Shown here in pieces: positions 20,967 to 42,982 of a stretch of DNA of 43,109 bases. The stretch is from an uncultured Eubacteriales bacterium (GTDB taxonomy: Bacteria > Bacillota > Clostridia > UBA1381 > UBA9506): the NCBI GenBank assembly GCA_949299615.1, contig CASGBM010000003.1:1-43109 (forward strand). The letters are read 5' to 3'. Below the pieces are notes generated by a model. That model made no database searches, was not told where the DNA came from, and worked only from the letters and a program-made list of their open reading frames with translations. The position numbers and the translations under genes are program-made. The number at the start of each line of letters is the position of its first letter. Within the stretch, counting starts at the first letter, position 1.

Positions 20967-21027
20967 AAGGTATCTTGTCCTTTCGCGGGATTTCAACATT
21001 TATACTAGCTTTAAAAAATTGCAAGCA

Positions 21028-21073
21028 AAAAAGAATCTCCTTTTCGGCAAATGTAAAAAAGGAGATTCTTTTT
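21028..21073 (-). terminator. Terminator of the dehydratase operon (symmetrical, may work both ways)
   Basis: A 17-pair stem (21028-21044 with 21057-21073) made of AAAAAGAATCTCCTTTT and its complement, with a 12-base loop and T-rich flanks on either strand. It lies 17 bases after the stop of the adenosyltransferase gene. Confidence 0.9.
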
Positions 21074-21089
21074 ATCTTGTGTATATGCG

Positions 21090-21692
21090 TTATTTTTCGT
21101 TTCCTTTTTCAGAAGACAGGCAATTCATTACATTGCGCACAACGTCGCGGCACAGCTGTTCATCCGAGCTGCTATAGTTTTTTTCAGAATGATTTGCCGC
21201 ATTGTCCGTGAAACGTGCGGTAATATATAAATAATCCGACAAGCGGTTCATATATTCGAGTGCTTTTGAATCCGCGCCATATTTTAGGGCTACACTGCGA
21301 AAACGGCGCTCTGCTCTTCGTGCAACGGCGCGTGCCACATCCAGCCGGGCGGACAGTTCACAGCCTCCGTACAAAACGAATCCTTTTGTACGCGAAAAAG
21401 AATTTTCCATTTGGTCAATCTGCTGTTCCAGTTCCGCTACCCGTTTGGAGCAAAGCGCAAATTTTGGATTTCTGGGATCGGCGATTCCTGCCATGATATG
21501 CATTAAAACCTGCTGGATCATTGACAGCCGGTCACAAAGCGATGCGTCTGCCAAAACTTTTGCCAGCCCGATAAAACTGCTGAGTTCGTCAATCGTTCCC
21601 AAAAGCTCAATGCGGTCATCCGATTTGGAAACGCTGACGCCATTCATAAGTGACGTTTGTCCGTGATCCCCTTGTTTGGTATATATTTTCAT
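21090..21692 (-). CDS. pduO: PduO-type ATP:cob(I)alamin adenosyltransferase
   Basis: A 200-residue enzyme that transfers the adenosyl group of ATP to cob(I)alamin, giving the coenzyme B12 required by the dehydratase encoded upstream in the operon. The N-terminal ATP loop reads KIYTKQGDHGQTSLMNG, followed by DDRIELLGTIDELSSFIGLA. The helix ELSARLDVARAVARRAERR is the hallmark of the trimeric PduO/EutT-like fold. It lacks the extra C-terminal haem domain of Salmonella PduO. ATG 21692 has GGAGCGAG upstream. It is the last gene of the operon, about 80 bases after the small reactivase gene. Confidence 0.93.
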   Translation of the reverse strand: MKIYTKQGDHGQTSLMNGVSVSKSDDRIELLGTIDELSSFIGLAKVLADASLCDRLSMIQQVLMHIMAGIADPRNPKFALCSKRVAELEQQIDQMENSFSRTKGFVLYGGCELSARLDVARAVARRAERRFRSVALKYGADSKALEYMNRLSDYLYITARFTDNAANHSEKNYSSSDEQLCRDVVRNVMNCLSSEKGNEK

Positions 21693-21772
21693 AGCGGCTC
21701 GCTCCTTTTTGTTCTTTTTCACCCTATAAAATCTGGTCGTTTCTAATATGCGTAAAATTTAACTCTAAAGTA

Positions 21773-22102
21773 TCAGCGCAGCGCCTGCTTTTTTACCGCC
21801 CTCGCACCGTTTGCTCCCAACCTGCGGCTATCTTGTGCGCTCGGGCAGCAATAATATTCTACGTTATGCCCAAGCTTCAGCCCTTTTATTTGCAGCGCAA
21901 TTTCCTGCTCGCAAATACCAATTCCGCATCCGAGCATAGAATCATTGGCAGCGTTCCAGGCCAAGGCATCAAGCGTTGTATCTGTTTGCTCGGCAATTTC
22001 GTAAAAAACGCCTTCTTCTTCCATGCCGGCGCAAATTTCTTTTAAAACGCCGGGATCAGGACGAAACGTATAAATGAATATGGCTGGTTTTTTTATAATC
22101 AT
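21773..22102 (-). CDS. pduH: Diol/glycerol dehydratase reactivase, small subunit (PduH/DdrB/DhaG type)
   Basis: A 109-residue protein of the dehydratase reactivase small-subunit family (PF02288). Visible marks are FIYTF near the start, EEEGVFYEI, the glycine-rich GCGIGICEQEIALQ and a conserved NVEYY segment with the closing SRRLGANGARAVK. With the large subunit it exchanges damaged cobalamin bound to the inactivated dehydratase, using ATP. Its ATG overlaps the stop of the large-subunit gene (ATGA). Confidence 0.92.
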   Translation of the reverse strand: MIIKKPAIFIYTFRPDPGVLKEICAGMEEEGVFYEIAEQTDTTLDALAWNAANDSMLGCGIGICEQEIALQIKGLKLGHNVEYYCCPSAQDSRRLGANGARAVKKQALR

Positions 22103-23916: not shown

Positions 23917-24305
23917 AGTAAAATCCCTCTCTTTTCATACACTTCTGCGGCTTCCATCACCAGTTTTGCACAATTATGCGCATGGTACTTTTCTAAAAGC
24001 TCTTTTGCCATTAAAACCAGTTCCAGCTTTGTGGAGCGGTTAGGACGCAGCTTGTCATACATCTTTAAAATAACGTCATCCGGGACATCTACCAGCTCCG
24101 CTGCGCGCTCAAAATTCTTTTCCATCGGGGCGTTGCCGTTTTCCATGGCAACCTGCCCCTGTGCTTTTAGCATTTCTTTTGATATTTTAATATCATCAGA
24201 GGACACATGGTTTTTCATAATTTCATCCAGCGTGATCTCTGTCAGCTTTTTTCCTGTTTTTGAGGTAATATGCTCTTTTTCGTATTCGCCAAATGGGTAT
24301 TTCAT
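23913..24305 (-). CDS. pduE: B12-dependent diol/glycerol dehydratase, small subunit (PduE type)
   Basis: A 130-residue gamma subunit. MEKNFERAAELVDVPDD and KLRPNRSTKLELVLMA are the conserved core. Compared with Salmonella PduE (about 173 residues) it lacks the N-terminal extension of about 40 residues and begins almost directly at the YPFGEYEKEH segment. Its ATG follows immediately on the stop of the medium-subunit gene. It belongs to the (alpha-beta-gamma)2 holoenzyme that dehydrates 1,2-propanediol or glycerol to an aldehyde. Confidence 0.93.
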   Translation of the reverse strand: MKYPFGEYEKEHITSKTGKKLTEITLDEIMKNHVSSDDIKISKEMLKAQGQVAMENGNAPMEKNFERAAELVDVPDDVILKMYDKLRPNRSTKLELVLMAKELLEKYHAHNCAKLVMEAAEVYEKRGILL

Positions 24306-24971
24306 TTATTCTTCCTCCCATTCTATGATTCCAAGTTCCGGGTCAAGCTGTTCGGTCTCTGCAATGTGCATCAAGGCCGCCTTTACCTGAAATTTCGGCC
24401 TGCACATGGGGTCGTTTTCACAGGGAATCGGAACAACCTGTTCGCCTTTGACGTATTTGGCAGCATTTTGACCAATTTTGCGGTAGGTTTCCAGCGTCAT
24501 TAAAGGTGCCTGGGGAAACAGTTCCAAATTGGAAAGGGGGTAGAGGTCTTTTTGGTGAATAACCGTTGTCCCCTTTGACTGGATACCAATCCCAAATCCG
24601 GACCCGGACAGTTTTGCAGCCTCAAGGGCCATAAAGCAAACATCGGAAGTGTCAAGCACTTTAACCACCCGGGCAACCATGCCTTCTTCTTCGATTCCTG
24701 CTTTTATATTTTTCAAAACGTCATCTAACGGAATGCCGCAGATGGTTTTTTTAATTTCTCTTTGAAATGCCGCCCCAACACCGATGACTACTTCTTTGGG
24801 ATCGGTTCCCTGTTTGGCTTTGGGGTATCCGGCATAAGAGGTTTTTTCGTCATTAATTCGGCTGTGACCCGCCATAGACGGGACGGGTTTTGAGGAGGGT
24901 TCGGCATCCTGTCCCATTTGTGCTAAAATAGCATGGGTTATTTGAGTGACCAGTTCTTCGTTAATTTGCAT
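24306..24971 (-). CDS. pduD: B12-dependent diol/glycerol dehydratase, medium subunit (PduD type)
   Basis: A 221-residue beta subunit, close to the 224 of PduD. The core has VVIGVGAAFQREI, GSGFGIGIQSKGTTVIHQKDL and LFPQAPLMTLETYR. Residues 1-20 (MQINEELVTQITHAILAQ, then M-G) form an amphipathic helix followed by a loose linker. In PduD the equivalent MEINEKLLRQIIEDVLSEM is the signal that takes the enzyme into the propanediol microcompartment. ATG 24971 has GGAGG upstream. No shell gene is in this window. Confidence 0.94.
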   Translation of the reverse strand: MQINEELVTQITHAILAQMGQDAEPSSKPVPSMAGHSRINDEKTSYAGYPKAKQGTDPKEVVIGVGAAFQREIKKTICGIPLDDVLKNIKAGIEEEGMVARVVKVLDTSDVCFMALEAAKLSGSGFGIGIQSKGTTVIHQKDLYPLSNLELFPQAPLMTLETYRKIGQNAAKYVKGEQVVPIPCENDPMCRPKFQVKAALMHIAETEQLDPELGIIEWEEE

Positions 24972-24984
24972 TGCCCTTTCCTCC

Positions 24985-26649
24985 TTACAGTTCTTTGGGG
25001 TTAATGATATGGGGTATCTGTTTGATTTCTTCCCAGCGCTTGCCTTCCACGCGATAACCCGTGCCGGGGCCCATATAGTCGTTGGGGGTGTTGACGCCGG
25101 AAAGCACATGGAAATCCTTGTCCAAAATGGCAGATGTCTGCATATAATCGCCGGCAACGCGTTGTTTGAGCATGTTTAAAACGCTTTCTGCTACATCGCG
25201 GAAACCGGACTCCGCCAATGCTTTTACCACATCTACGCCGGTAATTCCGCGCTTTAAGACGTCTTCAGCAGCTAAAAGATCTGCGGTAACGTCTCTGGGC
25301 AGCGTGTCTTTGCTTCCGTGTGCATAGGTCACGGCTTCAACCTGTTCATCCGTTACGGGAGAAAGGCCCAATTGCCGGAATACTGCCTGTACAGCTTTTG
25401 CCGCTTTATTTCTCACGCGGATCACTTCCTCTTCCGTTACAGGGCGAAGTCCGCCGTCTACTTGCATATCTCTTTGTAAAACGTTATAATCGTCAAAATC
25501 TTCTGCATCAAAGTTAGAGCCGGCAAACATGTTGTCATAGTTTGGTTCTGCGGCATAACCGGAAAAGATAAAATCGGTTCCCGGCAAAAATTGCAGCATG
25601 GTTCTTGCGGTTCTTCGCATATCAGAATTAGAAAAGCTCTGGTCGTTAGATGACGCGCACTCAAGGCCCAAAAGGGCTGCAACCAGATTTTCGCTCATAA
25701 CCTCGCGGATTCCTCCGGGAACAGAGCCGGGAACGCCGATGCAGCTAACAGAACCATTCTGAATCCCCTGGCTTCCTGCACCTTTGGTCGCATACAGACA
25801 GCGGCACTCTAAATAAAGCATGGAGCATTTTTCGCTGTTTCCCATCAGCACTTCCGAACCGGACCCAGAAGTAAAGCGTACTTTAAGGCCTCTGGAAGCA
25901 TAGGCAGAATTTAAAAACGCCTTTGAATACGGTGTATCGTCACCGTCAATAAACACTTTCTCCGTACCGTAAACGGATAAAGTTTCAGCGTAGGTGGTAA
26001 GGCCGCGGATTCCAAGCTCAAGTTCTGTAGCTTCCTCGGCGGAACATTGCGTTAAAACGCCCGGTCGCCCAACCTGCGAGCCAATTAACAGTGCCATTGC
26101 GCTCAGCGGTGCATAGCGAGCCACGCCCATGGTGGTCTCTTCTTCGGCAAAACCGCGCAGCGCGCCTTCTGCCGCATCAGCTGCGATTTGAACAGGGTCA
26201 TCTTTGAGGTTTGTGATGTGCGCCTGATTGCCCGGTGCTTTTCTTGCACGGATTTTTTGCATTCCCATCATCAGTTCTACCACATTTAGATGGTTCATTA
26301 CTTCTGTCATTTTTGCAGGAGTAATCCCCGAAACAATGTCTAAAATTTCTCTGCGGGAAACATGGATGTCTACAATCATCCGGGCAATTTCAAGCGAAGG
26401 CATTGCCATGGATTCGGCAGCCTTGTCAATGTTAATCGCATAATCTGCAATAAACTGGTCAATAAAATCAAACTCTTCCCGTTTTTTTCCATCCAGTTCC
26501 ACAATTTGTCCTTCACGCACGGTGACGGAAGGAGTGGGGTCATACGGGCTGCTCATGGCAGCAAAACCCATTTCCGGCCATTCATTAATAAAACCGTCTA
26601 AATTCACCGGACGCTTATCCAGCGTTTCAATACGTTTCGATCTTTTCAT
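24985..26649 (-). CDS. pduC: B12-dependent diol/glycerol dehydratase, large subunit (PduC type)
   Basis: A 554-residue alpha subunit, the full length of PduC/DhaB/GldA, carrying the TIM barrel where adenosylcobalamin and substrate meet. The N-terminus KRSKRIETLDKRPVNLDGF is the family start. Conserved segments include FTSGSGSEVLMG, GVPGSVPGGI and LECASSNDQSFSNSDMRRTA. Propanediol and glycerol enzymes cannot be told apart by eye. ATG 26649 follows AGGGAG. It heads a six-gene operon with its own strong promoter. No aldehyde or alcohol dehydrogenase follows, so the fate of the aldehyde must be decided elsewhere. Confidence 0.96.
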   Translation of the reverse strand: MKRSKRIETLDKRPVNLDGFINEWPEMGFAAMSSPYDPTPSVTVREGQIVELDGKKREEFDFIDQFIADYAINIDKAAESMAMPSLEIARMIVDIHVSRREILDIVSGITPAKMTEVMNHLNVVELMMGMQKIRARKAPGNQAHITNLKDDPVQIAADAAEGALRGFAEEETTMGVARYAPLSAMALLIGSQVGRPGVLTQCSAEEATELELGIRGLTTYAETLSVYGTEKVFIDGDDTPYSKAFLNSAYASRGLKVRFTSGSGSEVLMGNSEKCSMLYLECRCLYATKGAGSQGIQNGSVSCIGVPGSVPGGIREVMSENLVAALLGLECASSNDQSFSNSDMRRTARTMLQFLPGTDFIFSGYAAEPNYDNMFAGSNFDAEDFDDYNVLQRDMQVDGGLRPVTEEEVIRVRNKAAKAVQAVFRQLGLSPVTDEQVEAVTYAHGSKDTLPRDVTADLLAAEDVLKRGITGVDVVKALAESGFRDVAESVLNMLKQRVAGDYMQTSAILDKDFHVLSGVNTPNDYMGPGTGYRVEGKRWEEIKQIPHIINPKEL

Positions 26650-26728
26650 GACTTCTGCTCCCTGTCTCTATCATTAGAAAATATTGTTTTTTGTTTCCGT
26701 AAAATCAAAAGATTCTTACATATCTTAT

Positions 26729-26757
26729 ATTATACAACAAAGAAAAGAAAAAGGCAA
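26729..26757 (-). promoter_or_regulatory. Promoter of the diol/glycerol dehydratase operon
   Basis: On the minus strand, TTGCCT (26752-26757) and a perfect TATAAT (26729-26734) are 17 bases apart. No operator or regulator gene was found next to it. Confidence 0.8.
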
Positions 26758-26919
26758 CTAAATATTCAAAAAAAACACGGATTTTACAAAATTAACAAAC
26801 AAAAAACAACATAAACAAAACGAAATAAAATAACAAGTGCCGTTTTACTCCATTTCTTGCTCCCAAAAGGCAAAGAGAGGAATCAGGCATTTTCTAAACA
26901 AATCCTGATATAATAATCG

Positions 26920-26973
26920 TAAAAAAGCAAAAGAATCCAAACTTTTTACGATCTGTTAAAAGTTTGGATTCTT
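26920..26973 (-). terminator. Terminator of the sodium symporter gene
   Basis: Long stem (26931-26946 with about 26957-26973) containing AGAATCCAAACTTTT and its complement. On the minus strand it is followed by TTTTGC and a run of six T. It lies about 25 bases after the symporter stop codon. Confidence 0.85.
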
Positions 26974-26997
26974 GTAAGCCAATCTAATATGTAAATA

Positions 26998-28551
26998 TTA
27001 TATTCCGGCTTTTACTTCATCAAATTCTTTTTGAATTTCTTCAGAAGGCGGGGCAGTGAGTAAGGAAACAACCACAATACAAATGCAGGAGAATAAGAAT
27101 GCCGGTAAAAGTTCATAAATATCCCACGCACCGCCAAGAGGCCGAATTAAAAGGTTCCAGATAAAGACCATGCAGCCGCCGCTTACCATTCCGGCAATCG
27201 CGCCGGCGCGGTTAATGCGTTTCCAAAACAGGCTGAGAAGCATTAACGGCCCAAATGTCGCGCCAAAACCAGCCCAGGCAAAACTTACGATAGTGAAGAT
27301 AACGCTGTTTTCATCCAGAGCGATTACAATGGCAATCATGGCAATGACAAACAAAGTAATGCGGGAAATGAGTAAAACTTGTTTGTCGGTTGCTTTGCGG
27401 TGCAGCAGTCCTTGATAAATATTTTTGGAAAAAGCGGAGGCAGCAATCAGCAGGTACGAATCCGATGAACTGATGGTGGCTGCCAAAATACCTGCCATAA
27501 CCAAGCCCGCGAGCAAAGGCGGCAACAAATTGGTAGAAAGAAGAATAAACACGTTTTCCGCTTCGGATGCAGTTGTGAGCGCTGTTGGATGAAGCGTGCG
27601 CCCCACTAACCCGATGAAAACAGCAACGGCAAGAGAGATTACAACCCAAACAGTTGCAATGCGGCGGGAATGCGTTAATTCATGTTCTGTGCGGATTGCC
27701 ATGAACCGGAGCAGAACCTGTGGCATACCAAAATATCCAAGCCCCCAAGCCAAAGTGGAAATAATGTTTAAAAATCCATAACTTCCGGCAGCGCCAAACT
27801 GCGGGACTCCGTTTGTACTTTGTTGAACGCCGTCCACTACGGTTGGGGTGGCAATTCCGAAAAAGTCAAGAAATCCCGGAATAGATTTGGCATTGTCAAT
27901 AACAGCACCAAATCCTCCGGCAGCTACCGTGCCGGTAATGACAATGACGACAAGAGCAAAAATCATAACGATTGCCTGCATAAAGTCGGACGCGCTTTCC
28001 GCCAGAAAACCGCCGATTAAGGTGTAAATCAGCACAAAAACAGCACCGACAATCATCATAGAAATATAGTTAAAACCAAACAGTGTGGAAAACAATTTGC
28101 CGCAGGTTACCAAGCAGCTGGCAGCATAAACAGTAAAGAAAATTAGGATAAATAAAGCGGCAATGGTCATAACCACTTTATTCTTTTCGTGAAAGCGGTT
28201 TGAAAAGAATTCCGGCAGGGTAATAGCATTGTTTGCTTTTTCGCTGTAGCGGCGAAGTCTCTTTGAAGTAATCAGCCAATTGATGTATGTACCAATGGCA
28301 AGACCAATTGCCGTCCATGCGGCATCTGCGATCCCGCACCAATAGGCAACACCGGGCAGTCCCATTAAAAGCCAACCGGACATGTCAGATGCTTCTGCGC
28401 TCATAGCAGTCACCCAAGGTCCCAAAGTCCGTCCGCCCAAAAAATAGTTCTCAGAATTTTTGTTTGCTTTTTTTGCAAAAGCAATACCAATTGCGATTAC
28501 GGCTGCCATGTAAATGATCATCGTAATCATGATTTGAATCGTGTCGCTCAT
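26998..28551 (-). CDS. Sodium:solute symporter, PutP type (probably Na+/proline)
   Basis: A 517-residue membrane protein with about 13 spans of the SSS family. NYFLGGRTLGPWVTAMSAEASDMSGWLLMGLPG near the N-terminus is the PutP signature, with LPEFFSNRF next and AGILAATISSSDSYLLIAASAFSKN in the sodium-site helix. Proline is the most likely substrate. Pantothenate or other solutes are possible. ATG 28551 sits five bases after GGAGGGG. A TTG at 28563 would place the start on the ribosome site and is rejected. A TATAAT at 28576-28581 is a likely -10, without a good -35. Confidence 0.9.
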   Translation of the reverse strand: MSDTIQIMITMIIYMAAVIAIGIAFAKKANKNSENYFLGGRTLGPWVTAMSAEASDMSGWLLMGLPGVAYWCGIADAAWTAIGLAIGTYINWLITSKRLRRYSEKANNAITLPEFFSNRFHEKNKVVMTIAALFILIFFTVYAASCLVTCGKLFSTLFGFNYISMMIVGAVFVLIYTLIGGFLAESASDFMQAIVMIFALVVIVITGTVAAGGFGAVIDNAKSIPGFLDFFGIATPTVVDGVQQSTNGVPQFGAAGSYGFLNIISTLAWGLGYFGMPQVLLRFMAIRTEHELTHSRRIATVWVVISLAVAVFIGLVGRTLHPTALTTASEAENVFILLSTNLLPPLLAGLVMAGILAATISSSDSYLLIAASAFSKNIYQGLLHRKATDKQVLLISRITLFVIAMIAIVIALDENSVIFTIVSFAWAGFGATFGPLMLLSLFWKRINRAGAIAGMVSGGCMVFIWNLLIRPLGGAWDIYELLPAFLFSCICIVVVSLLTAPPSEEIQKEFDEVKAGI

Positions 28552-28678
28552 AAGCCCCTCCAACCCTTCATTAATATTATAATAAAAATATGAAAATCCT
28601 ATGGATTTTAGCGTAATTCCGTATATTTGTCCGCAAGATGCCGATGGGCGGCGGTTAAGATTTGGTTAAGATTTAATG

Positions 28679-28716
28679 AAAAAAATCGCCGCGAATAAGA
28701 TTGAATCCGCGGCGAT
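28679..28716 (-). terminator. Terminator after the tRNA gene
   Basis: Nine-pair GC-rich stem (28685-28693 with 28708-28716) followed on the minus strand by seven T. It starts two bases after the CCA end of the tRNA gene. Confidence 0.9.
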
Positions 28717-28717
28717 A

Positions 28718-28794
28718 TGGTGGGCCATCAGGGACTCGAACCCCGGACCGACCGGTTATGAGCCGGTTGCTCTGACCAACTGAGCTAATGGCCC
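28718..28794 (-). tRNA. tRNA with CAU anticodon (elongator Met, or Ile2)
   Basis: A 77-base tRNA with encoded CCA. The acceptor stem is GGGCCAT with ATGGCCC, the D arm TTAGCTCAGTTGGTCAGAGC, the anticodon stem ACCGG with CCGGT around loop CTCATAA, and the T arm CGGGG-TTCGAGT-CCCTG (one G-U pair). It is not the initiator, since the first pair is a normal G-C and the anticodon stem lacks the three G-C pairs in initiator order. CAU is used both by elongator tRNA-Met and by the lysidine-modified tRNA-Ile2. I cannot decide between them by eye. Confidence 0.93.
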
Positions 28795-28806
28795 TCTGAC
28801 TTTCGT

Positions 28807-28835
28807 ATTATATCAGATTTTTATTCCTGTGTCAA
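28807..28835 (-). promoter_or_regulatory. Consensus promoter of the tRNA gene
   Basis: On the minus strand a perfect TTGACA (28830-28835) and a perfect TATAAT (28807-28812) are separated by 17 bases, ending 13 bases before the tRNA. Confidence 0.92.
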
Positions 28836-28927
28836 GAAATTCAAATGAATTTTAATTTGGTTTTGCATATTTGTTTTTCCAGGCGACAGAGGAAAACCAT
28901 TTTGAGAGAATCACAGCAGAACCGGAC

Positions 28928-28975
28928 AAAAATATGGGCGGGCATCCGTTTGTAACTCAAAAACAGACACCCGCC
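28928..28975 (-). terminator. Terminator of the transketolase operon
   Basis: Fifteen-pair stem with G-U pairs (28937-28951 with 28961-28975), containing GGCGGG and CCCGCC, followed on the minus strand by ATATTTTT. It lies 33 bases after the stop of the C-terminal transketolase subunit. Confidence 0.85.
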
Positions 28976-29007
28976 TAGTATAGCGAAGCTTAAAAGCACA
29001 TCGAATA

Positions 29008-29946
29008 TTATTTTTTCATTTTGATAACGTCAGACGCCTGTTTTGCGATATTTTCGGCAGTCAGGCCATAAAGCTCGAGCAATTCTGCCGGCTTGCCGGA
29101 TTGCCCAAACACATCCTGTGTGCCAACCCGCCGCATGGGAACAGGACATTCTTCGCATAAGACTTCAGCGACTGCGCTGCCGAGGCCGCCAATGATATTG
29201 TGCTCCTCCGCAGTTACCACAGCGCCGGTTTCTTCTGCGGCTTTTTTTATAATTGCGCGGTCAATGGGCTTGATGGTATGAATGTTAATCACTCGGGCGC
29301 TGATTCCCTGAGCGGCTAGCATTTTTTCCGCTTCCAGCGCTTGTGGAACCATCAGCCCGGTTGCTATAATGGTCACGTCCGCTCCATCTTTTAACAATAC
29401 GCCTTTTCCCAGTTCAAAATGGTAAGAGGCTCTGTCAAACAAATCAGGAACTGCCAAGCGGCCGAAACGGAGGTATACAGGCCCGTCCAGATTTAACGCG
29501 GCTTCTATCGCGAGAATCGATTCGGTGGCATCAGCCGGATTGATTACCGTCATATTGGGAATGCTGCGCATTAAGGCAAGATCTTCCAGGCATTGATGGG
29601 TTGCACCGTCTTCACCAACGGAAATCCCGGCGTGCGTCGCTCCTATTTTTACGTTTAATTTCGGGTAGCAAATGGAATTACGAATTTGCTCAAACGCTCT
29701 GCCTGCGGCAAACATGGCAAAGGAACTTGCAAATACGGTTTTGCCGCAGGTGGCGATGCCCGCAGCGGTAGACATCATGTTTGCTTCTGCAATTCCGGTG
29801 TTGAAGAAACGATCCGGAAATTTTTTCTTAAATGTATCAGTTTTTGTGGATTTGGACAAATCCGCATCAAGTACAACAAAATCATATGTATTACCAAATT
29901 CTGCTAATGCAAGACCATACGCCTCGCGCGTTGCCATTTTACCCAT
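29008..29946 (-). CDS. Transketolase, C-terminal subunit
   Basis: A 312-residue half transketolase holding the pyrimidine-binding and C-terminal domains. Marks are FNTGIAEANMMSTAAGIA with the catalytic glutamate, ASSFAMFAAGRAFEQIRN, THAGISVGEDGATHQCLEDLALMR, and the domain-three HNIIGGLGSAVAEVL. Together with the partner encoded upstream it moves two-carbon units in the pentose phosphate pathway. The start ATG 29946 overlaps the partner's stop by eight bases and uses GGAGGTG inside the partner's last codons. Split transketolases are common in Firmicutes and archaea. Confidence 0.93.
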   Translation of the reverse strand: MGKMATREAYGLALAEFGNTYDFVVLDADLSKSTKTDTFKKKFPDRFFNTGIAEANMMSTAAGIATCGKTVFASSFAMFAAGRAFEQIRNSICYPKLNVKIGATHAGISVGEDGATHQCLEDLALMRSIPNMTVINPADATESILAIEAALNLDGPVYLRFGRLAVPDLFDRASYHFELGKGVLLKDGADVTIIATGLMVPQALEAEKMLAAQGISARVINIHTIKPIDRAIIKKAAEETGAVVTAEEHNIIGGLGSAVAEVLCEECPVPMRRVGTQDVFGQSGKPAELLELYGLTAENIAKQASDVIKMKK

Positions 29947-30793
29947 TTAACTGCACCTCCAGTTCCTCAATTTGTGCGTCAAGTTCTGATATTGCCTGCC
30001 GGTATTGCTCTTCGTTCGGCGCACTGCCATGCCAGGAGGCGTTGTTTTCCATAAATGAAACCCCTTTGCCTTTTACGCTTTTTAAAATTATGACAGTTGG
30101 CTTTCCTTTTACTGCTTTTGCTTCCTGAATGGCATCATACAGTTGAATCATATCGTGGGCATCCACACAGATTACATTCCAGTTAAAAGCCTCGAACTTT
30201 TTGTCAATCGGAAGGGGAGACATAACCTTGGATATATCTCCGTCAATCTGCAAACCGTTGTAGTCAACAAAAGCAGTCAAGTTGTCAAGTTTATAATGCG
30301 GCGCATACATGGCGGCTTCCCAAACTTGTCCTTCTTCCAGTTCGCCGTCCCCTAAAATGGTATAAACACGGTAATCTTTGCCGTCAATTTTTCCGGCAAG
30401 CGCCATGCCGTTTGCTGCGCAGATTCCTTGGCCCAAAGAGCCGGTGGACATATCCACACCGGGCACACCCTTCATATCCGGGTGCCCCTGAAGATAGCTG
30501 CCGGTTTTGCGGAAGGTGGCGCAGTCTTCTGTCGGGAAAAAGCCGCGTTCCGCTAAAACACCATAAAGAGCGGGAGCACAGTGCCCTTTGGAAAGGACAA
30601 ATCGGTCCCGATTCGGATCGTTGGGTTTTTTAGGATCAATCCGCATCTCCTCAAAATAAAGCACAGATAATACATCCGCGATGGAAAGAGAACCGCCCGG
30701 ATGTCCGGATGCCGCACTGTATACCGCTGTCAAAGCGTTTTTGCGAATGCGGTTCGCAATGATTTTTAGTTCAATTGCTCGTTTGTTGTTCAC
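29939..30793 (-). CDS. Transketolase, N-terminal subunit
   Basis: A 284-residue half transketolase carrying the thiamine diphosphate domain. ASGHPGGSLSIADVLSVLYF and the cofactor motif GDGELEEGQVWEAAM...VDYNGLQIDG are clear. The start is taken as GTG 30793, seven bases after AGGAG. The ATG at 30820 lies upstream of that ribosome site and has none of its own. It is 30 bases downstream of the YitT-family gene on the same strand, so the three probably share one transcript. Confidence 0.92.
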   Translation of the reverse strand: MNNKRAIELKIIANRIRKNALTAVYSAASGHPGGSLSIADVLSVLYFEEMRIDPKKPNDPNRDRFVLSKGHCAPALYGVLAERGFFPTEDCATFRKTGSYLQGHPDMKGVPGVDMSTGSLGQGICAANGMALAGKIDGKDYRVYTILGDGELEEGQVWEAAMYAPHYKLDNLTAFVDYNGLQIDGDISKVMSPLPIDKKFEAFNWNVICVDAHDMIQLYDAIQEAKAVKGKPTVIILKSVKGKGVSFMENNASWHGSAPNEEQYRQAISELDAQIEELEVQLNG

Positions 30794-35761: not shown

Positions 35762-35790
35762 TTGACTTTTGTAAAAGAACAAGATACAAT
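35762..35790 (+). promoter_or_regulatory. Promoter of the LacI-type regulator and catabolic cluster
   Basis: TTGACT (35762-35767) and TACAAT (35785-35790) are 17 bases apart. A palindrome lies just downstream, so the promoter is probably repressed by the regulator it expresses. Confidence 0.78.
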
Positions 35791-35795
35791 GTAAT

Positions 35796-35816
35796 CGTTT
35801 TCAGAAAACGTTTACA
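35796..35816 (+). promoter_or_regulatory. Candidate LacI-family operator
   Basis: CGTTTTC-A-GAAAACG (35796-35810) is a perfect palindrome around one central base. It overlaps a second inverted pattern, GAAAACGTTTAC (35804-35815), with the central CG usual in LacI-family sites. It lies at about +1 to +18 of the transcript, a position that would block transcription of the regulator gene and what follows. Confidence 0.65.
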
Positions 35817-35837
35817 TAAACGGGGAGGCGTTAGAAA

Positions 35838-36815
35838 ATAGGCATTAAAGATGTGGCAAAATATGCAAATGTTTCCGTGGCAACGGTATCGCGAGTCTTA
35901 AACGGGACCGGTGCGGTAGCAGATCAGACGAAGAAAGCGGTTTTGGCTGCAGCACAAAAGCTGGGATATTCTCCAAACCTTTTGGGTAAAAACCTCCGCC
36001 AGAAACAGACAAGGGTGATTTTGGTCATGCTGTCCTCCCTTGCCAACACGTTTTGTTCCAAAGTTGTGCATGGAATTGAAAAAGAAGCGGTAAAAAACGG
36101 CTATAACATTATGATTTGTGCAACGGAAGATTCCCGGAAAAGCGAGGAGACCTATTTAAATTTTGTGAGGAACAAAATGGCGGATGGCATAATTATTTTA
36201 AACAGTACGCTGACGGAAGAGGAAATGAAAGAAATTTCTTCTGCGTTTCCGGTGGTTCAGTGCAGTGAATATGTGGATACACAAACAACGCCGTATGTGT
36301 CGATTGACAATCGTGCGGCGGCGTATGATGCGGTTTCCTGTCTGATCCATAGCGGACGGAAAAAAATTGTCTATATCGGGGTTGCAAATGACCTGATCAG
36401 CTCGCGGCTCCGGCTAGAAGGATACCGAAAGGCGTTAGAAGACAACGGGATTGCATTCGATGAAAGCATGCTGCTTTTTGGCAATTATGGTTATCGGAGT
36501 GCAATGCGGGCAGTCAATAATTTTTTGAAAAAAAATATATTTTTTGATGCTGTTTTCGCTATTTCAGACCGCATGGCAGCTGGGGCAATTTCTGCTGTCC
36601 GGCAAAGCGGACGCCGGATCCCGGATGATGTGAGCGTCATTGGATTTGACAATACGGACATTACCTATATGTTTGAACCTGCCATATCTACTGTAGCACA
36701 GCCACAGAATGAAATGGGAGAGGCGGCGTTTCGCATGCTGCTGAGCAGGATGCAGGAGGAAATGCCCAAGAATATAATTTTAGACCATAAGCTGATTTTA
36801 AGAAATTCAAATTAG
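35838..36815 (+). CDS. LacI-family transcriptional regulator, apparently starting at AUA
   Basis: A repressor of about 325 residues. The N-terminal helix-turn-helix reads GIKDVAKYANVSVATVSRVLNG, and the periplasmic-binding-like sugar domain ends with DVSVIGFDNTD and FEPAISTVAQP. An in-frame TAG at 35832-35834 closes the frame just upstream, and the first canonical start (GTG 35853) would remove the start of helix one and is 24 bases from GGAGG. ATA 35838 is nine bases after GGGGAGG and gives the family-typical N-terminus. ATT 35844 is a poorer choice. It probably senses the substrate of the six genes downstream. Confidence 0.9.
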   Translation: MGIKDVAKYANVSVATVSRVLNGTGAVADQTKKAVLAAAQKLGYSPNLLGKNLRQKQTRVILVMLSSLANTFCSKVVHGIEKEAVKNGYNIMICATEDSRKSEETYLNFVRNKMADGIIILNSTLTEEEMKEISSAFPVVQCSEYVDTQTTPYVSIDNRAAAYDAVSCLIHSGRKKIVYIGVANDLISSRLRLEGYRKALEDNGIAFDESMLLFGNYGYRSAMRAVNNFLKKNIFFDAVFAISDRMAAGAISAVRQSGRRIPDDVSVIGFDNTDITYMFEPAISTVAQPQNEMGEAAFRMLLSRMQEEMPKNIILDHKLILRNSN

Positions 36816-36849: not shown

Positions 36850-37989
36850 ATGGCAGCAGATGAAGTTTTGAGCCAGTTTAAGCAGTCGGAGGAAAAAAAG
36901 GAAATCAAATTTGATAAAAAGTTTAAAGTTGGGATTATTGGAACAGGCTGGATTGCAGAAGCCCACGTGGAAAGCTATAAAAATATGCCGGACGTGGAGA
37001 TTGTTGCAGGCGCGGACTTAATTGACGGCAAAGCAGAAAAATTTTTCAAACGTTTTGGCGTAGAAAACGTCCGCTGCTATCCAGATCACAAATCTATGCT
37101 GGAAAACGAGGAGCTGGATGCGGTCAGCGTATGCACCTACAATGCGACGCATGCGGAATGTACCATTGACGCGCTCAATAAAGGTGTGAATGTTTTGCTG
37201 GAAAAACCCATGTGTGTGACGATCGAGGAAGCGGCGGACATTATGCGAGCGGAAAAAAAGAGCGGAAAAGTGCTTACGGTCGGTTTTCAGCCGCGCGGCG
37301 ATGAAAATATGATCAAAATTAAGGAAATTGTGGAATCCGGTGTTTTAGGAAAAATTTATTATATCCAGACAGGCGGAGGACGCCGCCGCGGGATTCCGGG
37401 AAGTACTTTTATAGAAAAGAAAACGGCTGGTGTTGGCGCATTGGGCGACATTGGCTGTTATTCCCTTGACATGGTGTTAAATGCGATTGGCTATCCAAAA
37501 CCGCTGACGGTAACCGGTTATACGTCTAATTTCTTTGGAACAAGCACAGAATACTATCCGCCGGAAGACGCTAACCGGTTTGACGTAGATGATTTTGCGG
37601 CGGCGTTTATCCGTTTGGAAGGCGGAATCATCCTTGACTTTAGAATCGCATGGGCCATGCATTTAGATACCCCGGGAGATACTATTATCATGGGTACGAA
37701 AGGCAGCCTGAGAATCCCGTCGACGGAGTGTTGGAACGGGACAGTCGGCGGTCCGATGAAAATATACCATGATGTGGCAGGCAGTATGGTAGAGACAGTA
37801 ATTCCGGTGATTCCATCAAACGGCAGCCTGTTTGATAAAAAGATCCGATCTTTTCTGGATGCAATAAAAAACCATACGCCGGCACCGGTACCTACCAGCC
37901 AGATTTTGTATAACCAGGCAATTATTGATGGCATTATGAAGTCGGCGCAAGCTGGAAAAGAAATTGAGATTCAAATCCCTGAAATATAA
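36850..37989 (+). CDS. Gfo/Idh/MocA-family oxidoreductase (first of three)
   Basis: A 379-residue NAD(P)-dependent sugar oxidoreductase. The Rossmann loop VGIIGTGWIAEAH is preceded by an unusual charged extension of about 26 residues. LLEKPMC carries the conserved EKP lysine, and GALGDIGCYSLDMVL the catalytic GDIG-x-H/Y segment, here with Tyr where His is usual. The family oxidises or reduces a hydroxyl of sugars, inositols and glycosides. ATG 36850 follows AAAGGAGAGG. It lies 34 bases after the regulator gene, probably in one transcript. Confidence 0.9.
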   Translation: MAADEVLSQFKQSEEKKEIKFDKKFKVGIIGTGWIAEAHVESYKNMPDVEIVAGADLIDGKAEKFFKRFGVENVRCYPDHKSMLENEELDAVSVCTYNATHAECTIDALNKGVNVLLEKPMCVTIEEAADIMRAEKKSGKVLTVGFQPRGDENMIKIKEIVESGVLGKIYYIQTGGGRRRGIPGSTFIEKKTAGVGALGDIGCYSLDMVLNAIGYPKPLTVTGYTSNFFGTSTEYYPPEDANRFDVDDFAAAFIRLEGGIILDFRIAWAMHLDTPGDTIIMGTKGSLRIPSTECWNGTVGGPMKIYHDVAGSMVETVIPVIPSNGSLFDKKIRSFLDAIKNHTPAPVPTSQILYNQAIIDGIMKSAQAGKEIEIQIPEI

Positions 37990-38028
37990 GAGTCAAAATA
38001 AAAGTTATAATGATTGGAGCGATATATA

Positions 38029-38862
38029 ATGAAAAAATTTAAAGTGGGTTTGCAACTATATTCCATTCGCGACGATATGGAAAAAGATATGGCGGCAGCT
38101 TTGAAAAAAGTGAAAGAAATAGGCTATGACTATGTGGAGTTTGCGGGATATTTTGGACACAGCGCTGATGAAGTGCGTGCTCTTTTGGATCAAAATGGTT
38201 TGGAATGCATTTCTGTGCATCAGGTGTACGATGTATTTTTAGAAGATGAGAAAACCAATATTGACTTTTTAAAAACGATTGGAGCTAAGTTTTGCGCAGT
38301 TCCGTGGATGGGAGTGGAAAAACACGCCGGGCACGGACAGTTTGACAAAACGGTGGAAGAGTTTTTAACTGTTGGCAAGGCGCTTTTGGCAAATGGAATT
38401 CAAATGCTGTATCACAACCATGATTTTGAATTTGAAAAATATGAAGGAAAATTTTTGCTTGACTGGCTGTATGACAGTGTTCCGGCAGACCTGTTAAAAA
38501 CAGAGCTGGATACCTGCTGGGTTCGTTATGCAGGACAGGATCCGGCAGAGTATTTGAGAAAGTACACGGGAAGAAGCCCTATTGTCCACCTGAAGGATTT
38601 TGTCTGCAAACGGCTCAATGCCGGTGCGGCATATGCATTAATTGATGATGAAGGAAAAGAGCAAAAACAGGAAACAAAAGAGGACAATGGATTTGAATTT
38701 CGTCCGGTTGGTTCTGGGATGCAGGATTTTCCGGCAATTTTAAAAGCGGCGGAGGACGCGGGGGCAGATTATGTTATTGTGGAACAAGATCAGGCTCCAA
38801 CCGCAACACCGATGGAATCAGCGGCTATGAGCAGAGAGTACTTAAAATCTTTGGGCCTGTAA
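38029..38862 (+). CDS. Sugar phosphate isomerase/epimerase-like TIM barrel (first of two)
   Basis: A 277-residue barrel of the xylose-isomerase-like family (PF01261). The likely metal ligands are Glu134 in YHNHDFEFE, Asp161 in TELDTCW, His187 in VHLKDF and Glu252 in VIVEQDQ. YSIRDDMEKDMAAALKKVKEIGYDYVEFAG is the typical N-terminus. Members include IolE dehydratase, ketose 3-epimerases and the lyase-type proteins that act on 3-keto-glycosides. Between two Gfo/Idh/MocA genes, the last is an attractive guess. ATG 38029 follows GGAG at nine bases. Confidence 0.88.
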   Translation: MKKFKVGLQLYSIRDDMEKDMAAALKKVKEIGYDYVEFAGYFGHSADEVRALLDQNGLECISVHQVYDVFLEDEKTNIDFLKTIGAKFCAVPWMGVEKHAGHGQFDKTVEEFLTVGKALLANGIQMLYHNHDFEFEKYEGKFLLDWLYDSVPADLLKTELDTCWVRYAGQDPAEYLRKYTGRSPIVHLKDFVCKRLNAGAAYALIDDEGKEQKQETKEDNGFEFRPVGSGMQDFPAILKAAEDAGADYVIVEQDQAPTATPMESAAMSREYLKSLGL

Positions 38863-38913
38863 TTGTTTATACAAAATGGGAAAAATCATTTTATAGAATA
38901 AGGAGTTGTCAAT

Positions 38914-39984
38914 ATGTTAAAATTGGGAATTATCGGTTGCGGCGGAATTGCAAACGGAAAGCATTTGCCTGCCTTAAAAAAGATTCAAGAGGTAGAAATG
39001 GTTGCGTTTTGTGACATTATTGCAGAGCGTGCGGAAAAAGCGGCGCGGGAATACGGCACGAAAGATGCGCGCGTTTATACGGATTATCAGGAGATGCTGG
39101 CAAAAGAAAAATTAAATGTGGTACATGTTTTAACGCCGAATATCTCCCACGCTCCGATTTCCATTGCGGCAATGGAAGCCGGCTGCGATGTTATGTGTGA
39201 AAAACCGATGGCAAAAACTTATGAGATGGCGAAACAGATGTTAGAGGCAAGAGATCGGACTGGCAGAAAATTGACCATTGGTTATCAGAACCGGTTCCGT
39301 CAGGACAGCCTTTTCTTAAAGCGCGCCTGTGAAAATGGCGATCTGGGTGAAATTTATTATGCAAAGGCACATGCGCTCCGTAGAAGAGCAGTTCCAACGT
39401 GGGGTGTCTTTTTAGACGAAGAAGCCCAAGGCGGCGGCCCGTTAATCGATATCGGAACCCATGCGCTGGATCTTACGTTATGGTGCATGGACAATTATAA
39501 GGTAAAAAGCGTAAAAGGCGTTGTTTATAAGAAATTGGGAGACCAGACAGAAACCGGCAATGCTTGGGGCGATTGGGATCCAGAAAAATTTACGGTAGAG
39601 GACTCGGCTTTTGGATTCATCATAATGGAAAACGGCGCGACCATTGTTTTGGAAAGCAGCTGGGCAATTAATATGCTGGATACCATTGAGGCGGCAACTA
39701 CACTAGCGGGAACCAAGGCCGGTGCGGATATGAGGGACGGACTGCGGATGAACAGCGTGCAGTATGGCAAACAAGTGGTGACCAAACCAGACCTGTCCGC
39801 CGGCGGCGTGGCATTTTACGACGGAGCTTCAGCGGCTCCGGAAGACCTGGAAGCAAGACAATGGATTGACGCGGTGTTAAACGATAAAGAGCCGCTCGTA
39901 AAACCGGAACAGGCGCTTGTAGTAACGCAGATTTTGGAAGCAATTTACGAAAGCGCCCGCACAGGCAAAACCATAGAATTTTAA
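38914..39984 (+). CDS. Gfo/Idh/MocA-family oxidoreductase (second of three)
   Basis: A 356-residue NAD(P)-dependent oxidoreductase. LGIIGCGGIANGKHLPALKK is the cofactor loop, CEKPMAKT the EKP motif and GPLIDIGTHALDLTLW the DIG-x-H active-site segment with the expected histidine. The C-terminal substrate sheet is present and complete. It differs clearly from the first and third copies, so the three probably act on different positions or intermediates rather than being recent duplicates. ATG 38914 follows AAGGAG. About 51 AT-rich bases separate it from the gene before. Confidence 0.92.
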   Translation: MLKLGIIGCGGIANGKHLPALKKIQEVEMVAFCDIIAERAEKAAREYGTKDARVYTDYQEMLAKEKLNVVHVLTPNISHAPISIAAMEAGCDVMCEKPMAKTYEMAKQMLEARDRTGRKLTIGYQNRFRQDSLFLKRACENGDLGEIYYAKAHALRRRAVPTWGVFLDEEAQGGGPLIDIGTHALDLTLWCMDNYKVKSVKGVVYKKLGDQTETGNAWGDWDPEKFTVEDSAFGFIIMENGATIVLESSWAINMLDTIEAATTLAGTKAGADMRDGLRMNSVQYGKQVVTKPDLSAGGVAFYDGASAAPEDLEARQWIDAVLNDKEPLVKPEQALVVTQILEAIYESARTGKTIEF

Positions 39985-40014
39985 CGGATGATCCGACAGA
40001 GAGGAGATATTATT

Positions 40015-40980
40015 ATGAAACTGGCTGTTGTAAATTCTGTATTTACCAATCGCAGTTTGGAAGAATCCCTGAATTATTTGAGTAATTTGGGTGTTGACAG
40101 TTTAGAAGTTGGCGCAGGAGGTTATCCCGGCGACCAGCACTTAAAACCTGCGGAGTTGATTGCTCATCCGGAAAAAGCGGATGAAATGAAAAAACTGTTC
40201 GAAAAATATCATATGGATATTGCTTGTATCAGCTGCCATGGAAACCCGCTTCATCCGCAAAAAGAGATTGCACAAAGCTTTCATAACCAATTTAAAAATG
40301 CAATTTTAGCGGCAGAAATGCTGGATGTACATACCATTGTTGGATTTTCCGGCTGCCCGGGAGATTGCGAAAATTCGAAATACCCAAACTGGGTTACCTG
40401 TGCATGGCCGGAAGATTATTTGGAAATATCCAAATGGCAGTGGGAAGAGAAAGTCATTCCATATTGGAAAGAAATGGCAGACTTTGCAAAAGCGCACGGT
40501 GTGAACAAAATTGCATTTGAAATGCATCCGGGTTTTGTGGTGTATAATCCGGAAACCTGCCTGCGCCTTCGTGAGGCAGTGGGAGAGGTGATCGGCGCAA
40601 ATGTTGACCCAAGCCATCTGTATTGGCAGGGAATGGAACCGACTGCGGTGATTAAAGCGTTAAAGGGTGCAATATATCACTTCCATGCAAAAGATACAAA
40701 AATTGACCGAAGAAATACGGAGGTAAACGGCGTTTTAGATTACAAGCATTATGGAAATGTACTGGAGCGTTCGTGGGTGTTCCGTACGGTTGGATACGGT
40801 CATGGCAAAGAGGATTGGAACGACATCATCAGCACGTTAAAAGCTGTAGGCTATGACGGAGTCATCTCGATTGAACACGAGGATAGCTTAATGTCTCAAA
40901 ATGAAGGGCTGGAAAAAGCGATTGCACTTTTAAAAGAAGTGTTAATTTACCAAAACGCAGGAGAAATGTGGTGGGCATAG
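40015..40980 (+). CDS. Sugar phosphate isomerase/epimerase-like TIM barrel (second of two)
   Basis: A 321-residue xylose-isomerase-like barrel, larger than the first. The likely metal ligands are Glu169 in FEMHPG, Asp198 in NVDPSHL, His224 in HFHAKD and Glu287 in SIEHED. The insert with CISCHGNPLHP and FSGCPGDCE around residues 71-120 is seen in a subgroup found with oxidoreductase clusters. ATG 40015 follows GAGGAGA. The gene ends with TAG, immediately followed by the ATG of the third oxidoreductase, so the two are translated together. Confidence 0.9.
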   Translation: MKLAVVNSVFTNRSLEESLNYLSNLGVDSLEVGAGGYPGDQHLKPAELIAHPEKADEMKKLFEKYHMDIACISCHGNPLHPQKEIAQSFHNQFKNAILAAEMLDVHTIVGFSGCPGDCENSKYPNWVTCAWPEDYLEISKWQWEEKVIPYWKEMADFAKAHGVNKIAFEMHPGFVVYNPETCLRLREAVGEVIGANVDPSHLYWQGMEPTAVIKALKGAIYHFHAKDTKIDRRNTEVNGVLDYKHYGNVLERSWVFRTVGYGHGKEDWNDIISTLKAVGYDGVISIEHEDSLMSQNEGLEKAIALLKEVLIYQNAGEMWWA

Positions 40981-42042
40981 ATGAAAGTGTATAACTTGGG
41001 AATTATTGGTTTTGGCGGCATGGCAGGACACCATGTTAAGCAGCTGGATGAAGTGGAGCAAGTGAAGGTAAAAGGTGTGTTCGACATCAATCCGGAGCGT
41101 GTCCGGGCTGCGAAAGATTTGGGATTTGTCGGTTACTCTTCAAAAGAGGAGCTGTTTTCCGATCCTGAAATAGATATGGTTTTAGTCGCTACGACCAACG
41201 AAGCGCATAAAGAGCTTTGCATTGAGGCAATGGCTGCCGGCAAGCATGTCCTTTGCGAAAAGCCGGTTACCATGTCATCTGCGGAGTTGGAAGAAGTAAT
41301 TGCCGCTTCAAAAAAATATAACCGTGTATTTACGATTGATCAGAATCGGCGTGTGAATAAAGATTTTGTATTAATGAAGCGAAATGTAGAAGCAGGGCTT
41401 TTAGGTAAGGTTTATGTGATTGAGTCCCGAGTAGAAGGTTCGCGCGGAATGCCGAGCGGCTGGCGTACCATAAAGCGGCTGGGCGGAGGAATGATGCTTG
41501 ACTGGGGTGTGCATCTGATTGATCAGATTATGTACATGGTTCCGGAAAAAGTGACGAATGTCTTTTGTAAAATGTACAGCATAGAATATCCGGAAGTGGA
41601 TGACAACTTTCGGCTGACGATGACCTTTGAAAGCGGACTAACTGCCCACATTGAGGTTTCTACGAATAATTATATTACCCATCCGCGCTGGTATGTTTTG
41701 GGAACGCAGGGTACGCTTCAAATTGATGATTGGGATTGCAGCGGCAGGATTGTCCGCTGCATTGATAAGGAAAATCATTGGGAAGAAGAGATCGTTTATA
41801 CCAAAGCAGGGCCAACAAAAACCATGGCGCCGCGCAACCCAAATTCAACCGAAACTATATCTTTATCTGAGCCAATGGATGTTGTGGATAATTTAAATCC
41901 GGTTTATTGGCAGTTTGTGGATGCCATCGAGGGCAAAGCGGAACTTAAAATTAAGCCGGAAGAAGCCATGCGTGTGATGAAAGTTATGGAAGCTGCATTT
42001 GTATCACATGAGACACAAACGGCAGTAAAAACAAATATATAA
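40981..42042 (+). CDS. Gfo/Idh/MocA-family oxidoreductase (third of three)
   Basis: A 353-residue NAD(P)-dependent oxidoreductase. LGIIGFGGMAGHHVKQL is the cofactor loop, CEKPVTMS the EKP motif and GGGMMLDWGVHLIDQIMYM the active-site segment in the D-W-G-x-H form. This DWG-x-H version is common among enzymes acting at C3 of glycosides, but I would not claim the substrate. The ATG abuts the previous stop with no gap, and its ribosome site (GGAGAAATG) lies inside the end of that gene. Confidence 0.92.
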   Translation: MKVYNLGIIGFGGMAGHHVKQLDEVEQVKVKGVFDINPERVRAAKDLGFVGYSSKEELFSDPEIDMVLVATTNEAHKELCIEAMAAGKHVLCEKPVTMSSAELEEVIAASKKYNRVFTIDQNRRVNKDFVLMKRNVEAGLLGKVYVIESRVEGSRGMPSGWRTIKRLGGGMMLDWGVHLIDQIMYMVPEKVTNVFCKMYSIEYPEVDDNFRLTMTFESGLTAHIEVSTNNYITHPRWYVLGTQGTLQIDDWDCSGRIVRCIDKENHWEEEIVYTKAGPTKTMAPRNPNSTETISLSEPMDVVDNLNPVYWQFVDAIEGKAELKIKPEEAMRVMKVMEAAFVSHETQTAVKTNI

Positions 42043-42053
42043 GGGTGAAAAAA

Positions 42054-42100
42054 CGATATTTTGCGGCAAATACTGTAATAGGCAGTGCTTGCCGCAATCG
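42054..42100 (+). ncRNA. Structured hairpin between the third oxidoreductase and the ThuA-like gene
   Basis: TTGCGGCAA (42061-42069) pairs perfectly with TTGCCGCAA (42089-42097). Inside, ACTG pairs with CAGT. Outside, CGAT pairs with ATCG past a bulge. No T-run follows. It could protect the upstream message, weaken readthrough or be part of a leader. Confidence 0.55.
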
Positions 42101-42118
42101 TATAAAGCGGGGAATAAC

Positions 42119-42169
42119 ATGAAAATTGCATTTGATACAAGTCAAATGGAGCAGGGAGATGAGGTTTAA
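42119..42169 (+). CDS. Possible 16-residue peptide ORF
   Basis: ATG 42119 follows GCGGGGAATAAC, a fair ribosome site, and reads MKIAFDTSQMEQGDEV before TAA. It may be the remnant of a lost gene, a leader peptide or chance. No family can be recognised from 16 residues. Confidence 0.25.
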   Translation: MKIAFDTSQMEQGDEV

Positions 42170-42268
42170 CCCCAGGCGGCCTATCTTAATCTTGGTTCGT
42201 AAAGCGGGATTATACAACATTTTGAAAAGATAAAGCTAGTGTGATAGAAAGAAAGGAGTACAGCATCA

Positions 42269-42982
42269 ATGATTCGAGTAACCATTTTTAACGAACATAT
42301 CCATGAAAAAACAGAAGAAGCCGTACAAAAAGTTTATCCCCATGGAATTCATGGTGCGATAAAAGAATTTTTAGAAGGTGAGAATGTAGTCGTCCGTACC
42401 TGTACGTTAGATGATCCGGAATGCGGACTTACAAATGAAATCCTTCGGGATACAGATGTTTTAATTTGGTGGGCGCATGTGGGGCATGAAAAAGTGCCTG
42501 ATGAAGTTGCACAGCGTGTGCAGGAGGCGGTATTAAAAGGCATGGGCGCCATTTTCCTGCATTCTGCGCATAAATCAAAGCCATTCATGCGTCTTTTGGG
42601 AACGACCGGAAATTTAAGCTGGCACGAATCCGGTACGAAAGAAAGAATTTGGGTGGTTTCTCCGTCCAGCCAAATTGCGAAAGGTCTGGGAGAATATTTT
42701 GAAATTCCGAACGAAGAGACTTATGCGGAACCATTTGATATTCCGCAGCCGGACCGTCTGATTTTTATTGGCTGGTATACATCGGGAGAAGTGTTCCGCA
42801 GCGGTTGCTGTTATAACCGTGGAAATGGTAAAATATTTTATTTCCAACCGGGTCATGAAACATTTCCGATTTTTTATCAAAAAGAAGTCCAGACCGTAAT
42901 TCGCAATGCAGTGGAATGGGCAGCTCCGGTAAAAAGGATAGAACAGCTGGATTGTCCCCATACGAAGCCAATTGAGAAATAA
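42269..42982 (+). CDS. ThuA-like protein (trehalose utilisation family, PF06283)
   Basis: A 237-residue protein with the glutamine-amidotransferase-like fold of ThuA. TDVLIWWAHVGHEKV, AIFLHSAHKSKPF, a mid segment with WHESGTKERIWVV, and the closing GNGKIFYFQPGHETFPIFY are typical. In Sinorhizobium, ThuA works with ThuB, a Gfo/Idh/MocA enzyme, on 3-keto forms of trehalose, maltitol and sucrose, though its own reaction is not fully settled. Here it closes a cluster of three such oxidoreductases. ATG 42269 follows GAAAGGAG. It is 226 bases from the preceding gene. Confidence 0.9.
   Translation: MIRVTIFNEHIHEKTEEAVQKVYPHGIHGAIKEFLEGENVVVRTCTLDDPECGLTNEILRDTDVLIWWAHVGHEKVPDEVAQRVQEAVLKGMGAIFLHSAHKSKPFMRLLGTTGNLSWHESGTKERIWVVSPSSQIAKGLGEYFEIPNEETYAEPFDIPQPDRLIFIGWYTSGEVFRSGCCYNRGNGKIFYFQPGHETFPIFYQKEVQTVIRNAVEWAAPVKRIEQLDCPHTKPIEK

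Follow-up and report, generated by a model that had tools for sequence, protein, structure and literature searches.

What reactions are served by a gene cluster that combines three oxidoreductases of one family with two TIM barrels and a ThuA-family protein? The question is raised by the right end of contig CASGBM010000003.1 from an uncultured Eubacteriales bacterium (assembly GCA_949299615.1). The window analysed here is this whole contig (C3; 43,109 nucleotides), and the genome to which it belongs comprises 2.39 Mb in 208 contigs (97.7% complete, 0.6% contamination). Seven open reading frames (ORFs), all on the + strand, run from a lacI gene to the contig end in the order LacI, Gfo, TIM, Gfo, TIM, Gfo, ThuA. 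We consider it likely that the cluster encodes a cytoplasmic, non-hydrolytic pathway of glucoside cleavage, with a plant-type O-beta-glucoside as the likeliest substrate and with two of the oxidoreductases, O2 and O4, as alternative entry oxidases. What was observed is homology, conservation of active-site residues and of gene association, and the predicted folds; each reaction, the substrate and the roles of the individual enzymes were inferred from these.

Gene layout

The genes are designated O1 to O7 and are as follows (the basis of each assignment is given in brackets).

35838/35853..36815, + strand: O1, LacI-family regulator (ORF, Pfam, sequence)
36850..37989, + strand: O2, Gfo/Idh/MocA oxidoreductase with a DIGCY (Tyr) motif, probable glycoside 3-dehydrogenase dedicated to O3 (Pfam, Protein Data Bank [PDB] match, motif, adjacency)
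38029..38862, + strand: O3, TIM barrel, probably of the 3-keto-glucoside 1,2-lyase/O-glycoside beta-eliminase type (sequence, residues, fold)
38914..39984, + strand: O4, putative NAD-dependent glycoside 3-oxidase of the DgpA type (sequence identity to DgpA)
39988..40980, + strand: O5, TIM barrel, probably of the 2-hydroxy-3-keto-glucal hydratase type (sequence, profile, fold, residues)
40981..42042, + strand: O6, Gfo/Idh/MocA oxidoreductase with a DWGVH motif, probable 3-keto-glucose reductase (PDB matches, adjacency)
42269..42982, + strand: O7, ThuA-family protein, putative accessory (Pfam, PDB match, gene neighbourhood)

All seven products passed Pfam cut-offs (LacI, GFO_IDH_MocA three times, AP_endonuc_2 twice and ThuA), and the ORF list and Pfam matches bore out the gene order given in an earlier description made from the sequence alone (the sequence-only reading). 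The interval assigned there, 36850-42982, holds real genes, while lacI falls just outside it. The gaps among O4, O5 and O6 are 0-3 bp. None of the proteins reached the cut-off of any NCBIfam model.

Proposed pathway

O4 (DgpA-type), O2 or both would oxidise C3 of the glucoside with NAD+. O3 would then remove the aglycone by Mn2+-assisted beta-elimination, leaving 2-hydroxy-3-keto-glucal, which O5 would hydrate to 3-keto-glucose; reduction of the latter to glucose by O6 would regenerate NAD+ within the pathway. O2 and O4 would be alternative oxidases for entry, each with its own range of glycosides, and both would be served by one common lyase-hydratase-reductase set; ThuA (O7) would act as an accessory, and LacI (O1) would control expression of the cluster. 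Since the product would be free glucose, a dedicated sugar kinase would be needless; the glucose would be phosphorylated by a kinase encoded outside the cluster, and one of the four ROK-family proteins found in the genome could be a glucokinase.

It is the joint presence of a DgpA-type O4, an AtOGE-like O3 and an AtHYD-like O5 that makes the set fit the sequence oxidation, beta-elimination, hydration and reduction. These enzyme homologies support the keto-intermediate chemistry (oxidation, elimination and re-reduction) that the sequence-only reading had proposed.

The two TIM barrels

The best sequence match of O3 was the O-glycoside beta-eliminase AtOGE (8bvk; 1.3e-24), in which the ligands are His132, Asp163, His189 and Glu233 and the catalytic residue is His134 (PMC10628242). 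These residues align with H129, D161, H187, E252 and H131 of O3, all five of which were invariant in 39/39 aligned sequences (E159 in 35/39). As the position of AtOGE His132 is occupied by Glu in C-glycoside enzymes (PMC10628242), the His found in O3 places it, at that position, with the O-glycoside type. The predicted model of O3 had a mean predicted local distance difference test (pLDDT) score of 92.9, and its top fold matches were the 3-keto-beta-glucopyranoside-1,2-lyases AL1 and BT1, with AtOGE close behind (E-values for these lyases and AtOGE, 4e-19 to 4e-17). O3 is thus probably of the 3-keto-glucoside 1,2-lyase/O-glycoside beta-eliminase type.

O5 matched AtHYD (8ro4; a 2-hydroxy-3-keto-glucal hydratase, named from the title of the structure) by sequence (3.9e-9), profile (1.6e-11) and fold (2.8e-19), with an identity of about 21%; it also matched the uncharacterised Streptomyces protein 2zds. 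The pLDDT of the predicted model was 92.0. Residues E178, H180, D207 and H233 were invariant in 41/41 aligned sequences, and E296 in every sequence covering that position. Both sequence and predicted fold indicate that O5 is probably of the 2-hydroxy-3-keto-glucal hydratase type. On these grounds, the family-level guess that the two barrels were epimerases is replaced by a lyase (O3) and a hydratase (O5).

The three oxidoreductases

O4 was 59% identical to DgpA (7xr9) over 353 residues (E 4.6e-135), which substantiates the link to DgpA made earlier, and it scored better still against DgpA1 of W974-1 (9m3d; E 4e-142). Its motifs EKP and DIGTH were invariant in 83/83 sequences, and the protein fits an NAD-dependent glycoside 3-oxidase of the DgpA type.

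DgpA was also the best PDB match of O2 (1.9e-46). Where the other two proteins have DIGTH or DWGVH, O2 has DIGCY, a motif invariant in 7 aligned sequences; from sequence and gene adjacency, it is a probable glycoside 3-dehydrogenase dedicated to O3.

O6 best matched the uncharacterised oxidoreductase 3e18 (2e-89) and then DgpA2 (9m37; 2.3e-52). Its adjacency to O5 is kept across loci, whichever oxidase accompanies the pair, and we infer from this that it is a probable 3-keto-glucose reductase, both in its assignment and in the direction of its reaction. The levoglucosan dehydrogenase model NF052479 was not reached by O2 (84 bits), O4 (91 bits) or O6 (81 bits), its cut-off being 650 bits, and all three were far under the cut-offs of the NCBIfam BT_2158 and BT_2159 family models.

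Precedents

The four roles of oxidation, elimination, hydration and reduction have been demonstrated biochemically within one gene set for levoglucosan (PMC7676230). That set, lgdA-lgdB1-lgdB2-lgdC of Bacillus smithii, resembles the cluster in its Gfo dehydrogenase, TIM lyase, TIM hydratase, Gfo reductase and LacI regulator (PMC7676230); it differs in having an ABC transporter and a levoglucosan dehydrogenase, whereas the window has three dehydrogenases that score far under the cut-off for that enzyme. The succession of 3-oxidation, beta-elimination, hydration and reduction has also been demonstrated biochemically with phlorizin in Agrobacterium (PMC10628242). The A. tumefaciens pathway (AtOGE, AtHYD and a Gfo reductase; PMC10628242; 8ro4) shares with the cluster a lyase and a hydratase with the same conserved residues, and a Gfo-type oxidoreductase for the final step. 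However, the first oxidation there is carried out by the flavoenzyme GlycDH, in place of NAD-dependent enzymes of the DgpA and O2 types, and the window cluster has an added ThuA gene. In the puerarin system of strain PUE (DgpA-DgpB-DgpC; PMC8563793), likeness is confined to the O4-DgpA pair; the window has an O-glycoside-type lyase in place of DgpB and DgpC.

The likeness to Bacteroidota lies in the fold and chemistry of the lyases AL1 and BT1 (8tcd, 8tct), the phylum and the gene set being different. A 3-keto-glycoside pathway with these two lyases was reportedly described in that phylum by Nasseri et al. (Nature, 2024; cited in PMC13273386).

As the chemistry is already described (levoglucosan, flavonoid glucosides), novelty could lie only in how the genes are combined: an oxidase of the DgpA type stands here together with an O-type lyase, with a second oxidase and with ThuA.

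Comparative genomics

Searching named genomes with O4 yielded 80 loci (64-79% identity, mostly Bacillota), to which two from a family search were added; many of the contigs in this 82-locus set are short. O5 relatives were found near the O4 homologue in 41 of the 82 loci, O3 relatives in 36, O6 relatives in 33, and all three together in 25. A comparison of neighbourhoods had been proposed together with the sequence-only reading; once run, it found the same gene families together in many Bacillota loci, so that their grouping is not due to chance. The hydratase and the reductase form the constant pair across loci while oxidase and lyase vary, as would be expected if both enzymes act after the aglycone has left.

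In L007 (Ructibacterium gallinarum), L008 and L009, which are the closest relatives, the genes O4, O5, O6, O3 and ThuA form a compact operon that contains no transporter. Their O4-O6 proteins are 65-79% identical to those of the window and their ThuA 58-67%, whereas their lyase is just 30-36% identical to O3. Homologues of O2 were present in 58 of the 391 genomes sampled from the class (many of them 66-78% identical), and in most of the 20 O2 loci sampled an O3 relative is the immediate neighbour. Two loci, L158 and L168, carry O2-O3-O5-O6 without DgpA within the stretch read. In a tree made by a quick method, with poorly resolved deep branches, O3 grouped with the O2-linked lyases (Shimodaira-Hasegawa-like approximate likelihood ratio test [SH-aLRT] support, 99), and not with the lyases found in the closest operon relatives (L007, for example). 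For these reasons it looks as if two modules had merged in the window, an O2-O3 oxidase-lyase module and an O4-O5-O6-O7 (DgpA-hydratase-reductase-ThuA) module.

A wider proposal is held tentatively, at somewhat less than even confidence: the fusion of these modules would have produced a hub with two entries, in which a Tyr-type O2 and a DgpA-type O4 feed one lyase-hydratase-reductase set. Across Bacillota, DgpA-type oxidases would then work mainly in O-glucoside elimination, and DgpA would be no marker of C-glycoside cleavage.

In 17 loci, among them Lachnospiraceae loci such as L026, L027 and L045, the gene directly downstream of the DgpA homologue encodes another TIM-barrel protein, about 262 residues long.

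Alternative readings

Several observations weigh against the glucoside-cleavage pathway. O3 and O5 share only about 21-28% identity with enzymes that have been characterised, and epimerases and dehydratases are also found in the Xylose-isomerase-like family. Among the 82 DgpA loci, 25 are without a TIM-barrel gene within 6.5 kb. The closest named relative of O6 is DgpA2, the structure of which was solved with isoorientin, so O6 may be a third oxidase instead of a reductase. Neither an importer nor a gene for glycoside specificity was seen in the cluster, the right flank of which is cut off at 43109, where the contig ends 127 bp past ThuA. The earlier statement that kinase, transporter and glycosidase are lacking accordingly holds for the left side and for the cluster itself, and not for the right flank.

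Deglycosylation of C-glycosides, of the DgpABC/DfgABE kind, is the first alternative and an unlikely one. O4 would oxidise a flavonoid C-glucoside and one of the TIM barrels would cleave the C-C bond. DgpA homologues are often taken as a sign of such cleavage (e.g. PMC11170127), O4 is closely homologous to DgpA, which acts on C-glucosides (PMC11239390), and the first ligand position of O5 is Glu, as in C-glycoside eliminases. However, D3dgpA oxidises O-glucosides as well as C-glucosides (PMC11239390), and C-glycoside cleavage is known to use DgpB (the CGDB beta subunit, PF19906), of which no match was found anywhere in the genome of the window. The CGDB model did match 4 of the 82 genomes holding O4 relatives (L064, L071, L076 and L048; 3-5 copies each), which shows that the model works and provides a positive control for that absence. 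The other 78 were without a match; some of the 82 are incomplete assemblies, so that single absences mean little and it is the overall proportion that counts. Close DgpA homologues thus mostly occur in genomes that lack the partner for C-C cleavage. DgpC (7exz and 7exb chains) appeared neither in the sequence matches nor in the top 50 fold matches of O3 and O5, a comparison that covered these two barrels of the genome. Together with the O-glycoside-type metal ligands of O3, the missing CGDB gene speaks against the C-glycoside substrate that had been among those suggested. Bacillota from gut and environment have been scored for metabolism of the C-glycosides puerarin and mangiferin partly by counts of DgpA homologues. 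If the O-glucoside pathway proposed here is confirmed, glycosidase-independent cleavage of O-glucosides would be common in anaerobic Clostridia and the annotation of such genomes would change; the cluster is a compact gene set in which every step can be assayed.

A route that alters stereochemistry is very unlikely. Here a 3-keto-glycoside would be made, a TIM barrel would epimerise C4 (or C2) and another dehydrogenase would re-reduce the product, as in the Ycj system of E. coli with its 3-keto-D-glucoside 4-epimerase YcjR. The gene types (Gfo and TIM) agree with this, and YcjR (6wn6) does appear in the fold list of O3, but at rank 47 (2.4e-10), well under the lyases and AtOGE; AtHYD likewise ranks far better for O5. 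Epimerisation would also leave unexplained why two different barrels match two successive steps of one pathway.

It is still less probable that the main work falls to ThuA together with a ThuB-like dehydrogenase, acting on 3-keto-disaccharides derived from trehalose or sucrose, as in the ThuAB pathway. A ThuA family member is present and is conserved in L007-L009, but ThuA occurs in just 11 of the 82 loci, and the lyase and the hydratase would be superfluous if it acted alone. No transporter adjoins the visible cluster (compare thuEFGK of the disaccharide pathway). A ThuAB-type route could be nested inside the glucoside-cleavage pathway.

Catabolism of inositol or another cyclitol, which had also been suggested, was rejected as scarcely credible: the IolG and IolE models were the best of few NCBIfam matches for some of the proteins, but all scores lay far under the cut-offs (at best 143 against 355 bits for IolG and 58 against 290 bits for IolE), and the cluster contains no further iol gene.

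ThuA and the O6-O7 gap

O7 matched Pfam PF06283 with 109 bits (cut-off 33) and the ThuA-like protein 1t0b with 3.6e-83. It is best regarded as a putative accessory. It is separated from O6 by 226 bp (42043-42268), in which a promoter scan gave no match for a promoter of its own. L007 and L008 carry their lyase gene at this place, and the gap is possibly a deletion scar. A relic of the ancestral lyase was sought as well; the sole trace, a 30-bp stretch resembling the ribosome site and start region of the L052 lyase gene, was too weak for a claim.

LacI regulator and putative operator

A canonical GTG start of lacI at 35853 would drop five residues of the helix-turn-helix. The start expected from the family, at 35838, reads ATA, and a GGGGAGG ribosome site stands ahead of this codon (region 35820-35870). 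Upstream of the gene lies one further feature.

35790..35816, no strand: putative LacI-type operator, a 27-bp near-perfect palindrome, TGTAATCGTTTTCAGAAAACGTTTACA (sequence, promoter scan, shuffles)

The palindrome sits directly downstream of a promoter-like site (35762-35790). It outscored shuffled sequences and was unique within the window in a pattern search with the site itself as query. Palindromes sharing the half-site TGTAATCG recur upstream of several related lacI genes, and it is plausible that TGTAATCGTTTTCAGAAAACGTTTACA is an operator for LacI.

Neighbouring genes and a second cluster

A sodium:solute symporter (SSF; 26998-28563, - strand), encoded 8 kb to the left of the cluster, is a candidate transporter; a split transketolase, cysS and cysE lie between the two. 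The large and medium subunits of a B12-type diol/glycerol dehydratase and a reactivase are encoded at 22099-26649 (- strand).

Contig C7 of the same genome holds a parallel cluster at 19825-30288 (locus L124:6826-17289), with the order ThuA-Gfo, an AraC regulator and TIM-Gfo-TIM-Gfo-uxuA-uxaC-SDR; its second TIM barrel shares 31% identity with O3. The neighbouring uxuA and uxaC suggest that this cluster probably applies the same chemistry to 3-keto-glucuronides, and its product would be handed to hexuronate catabolism.

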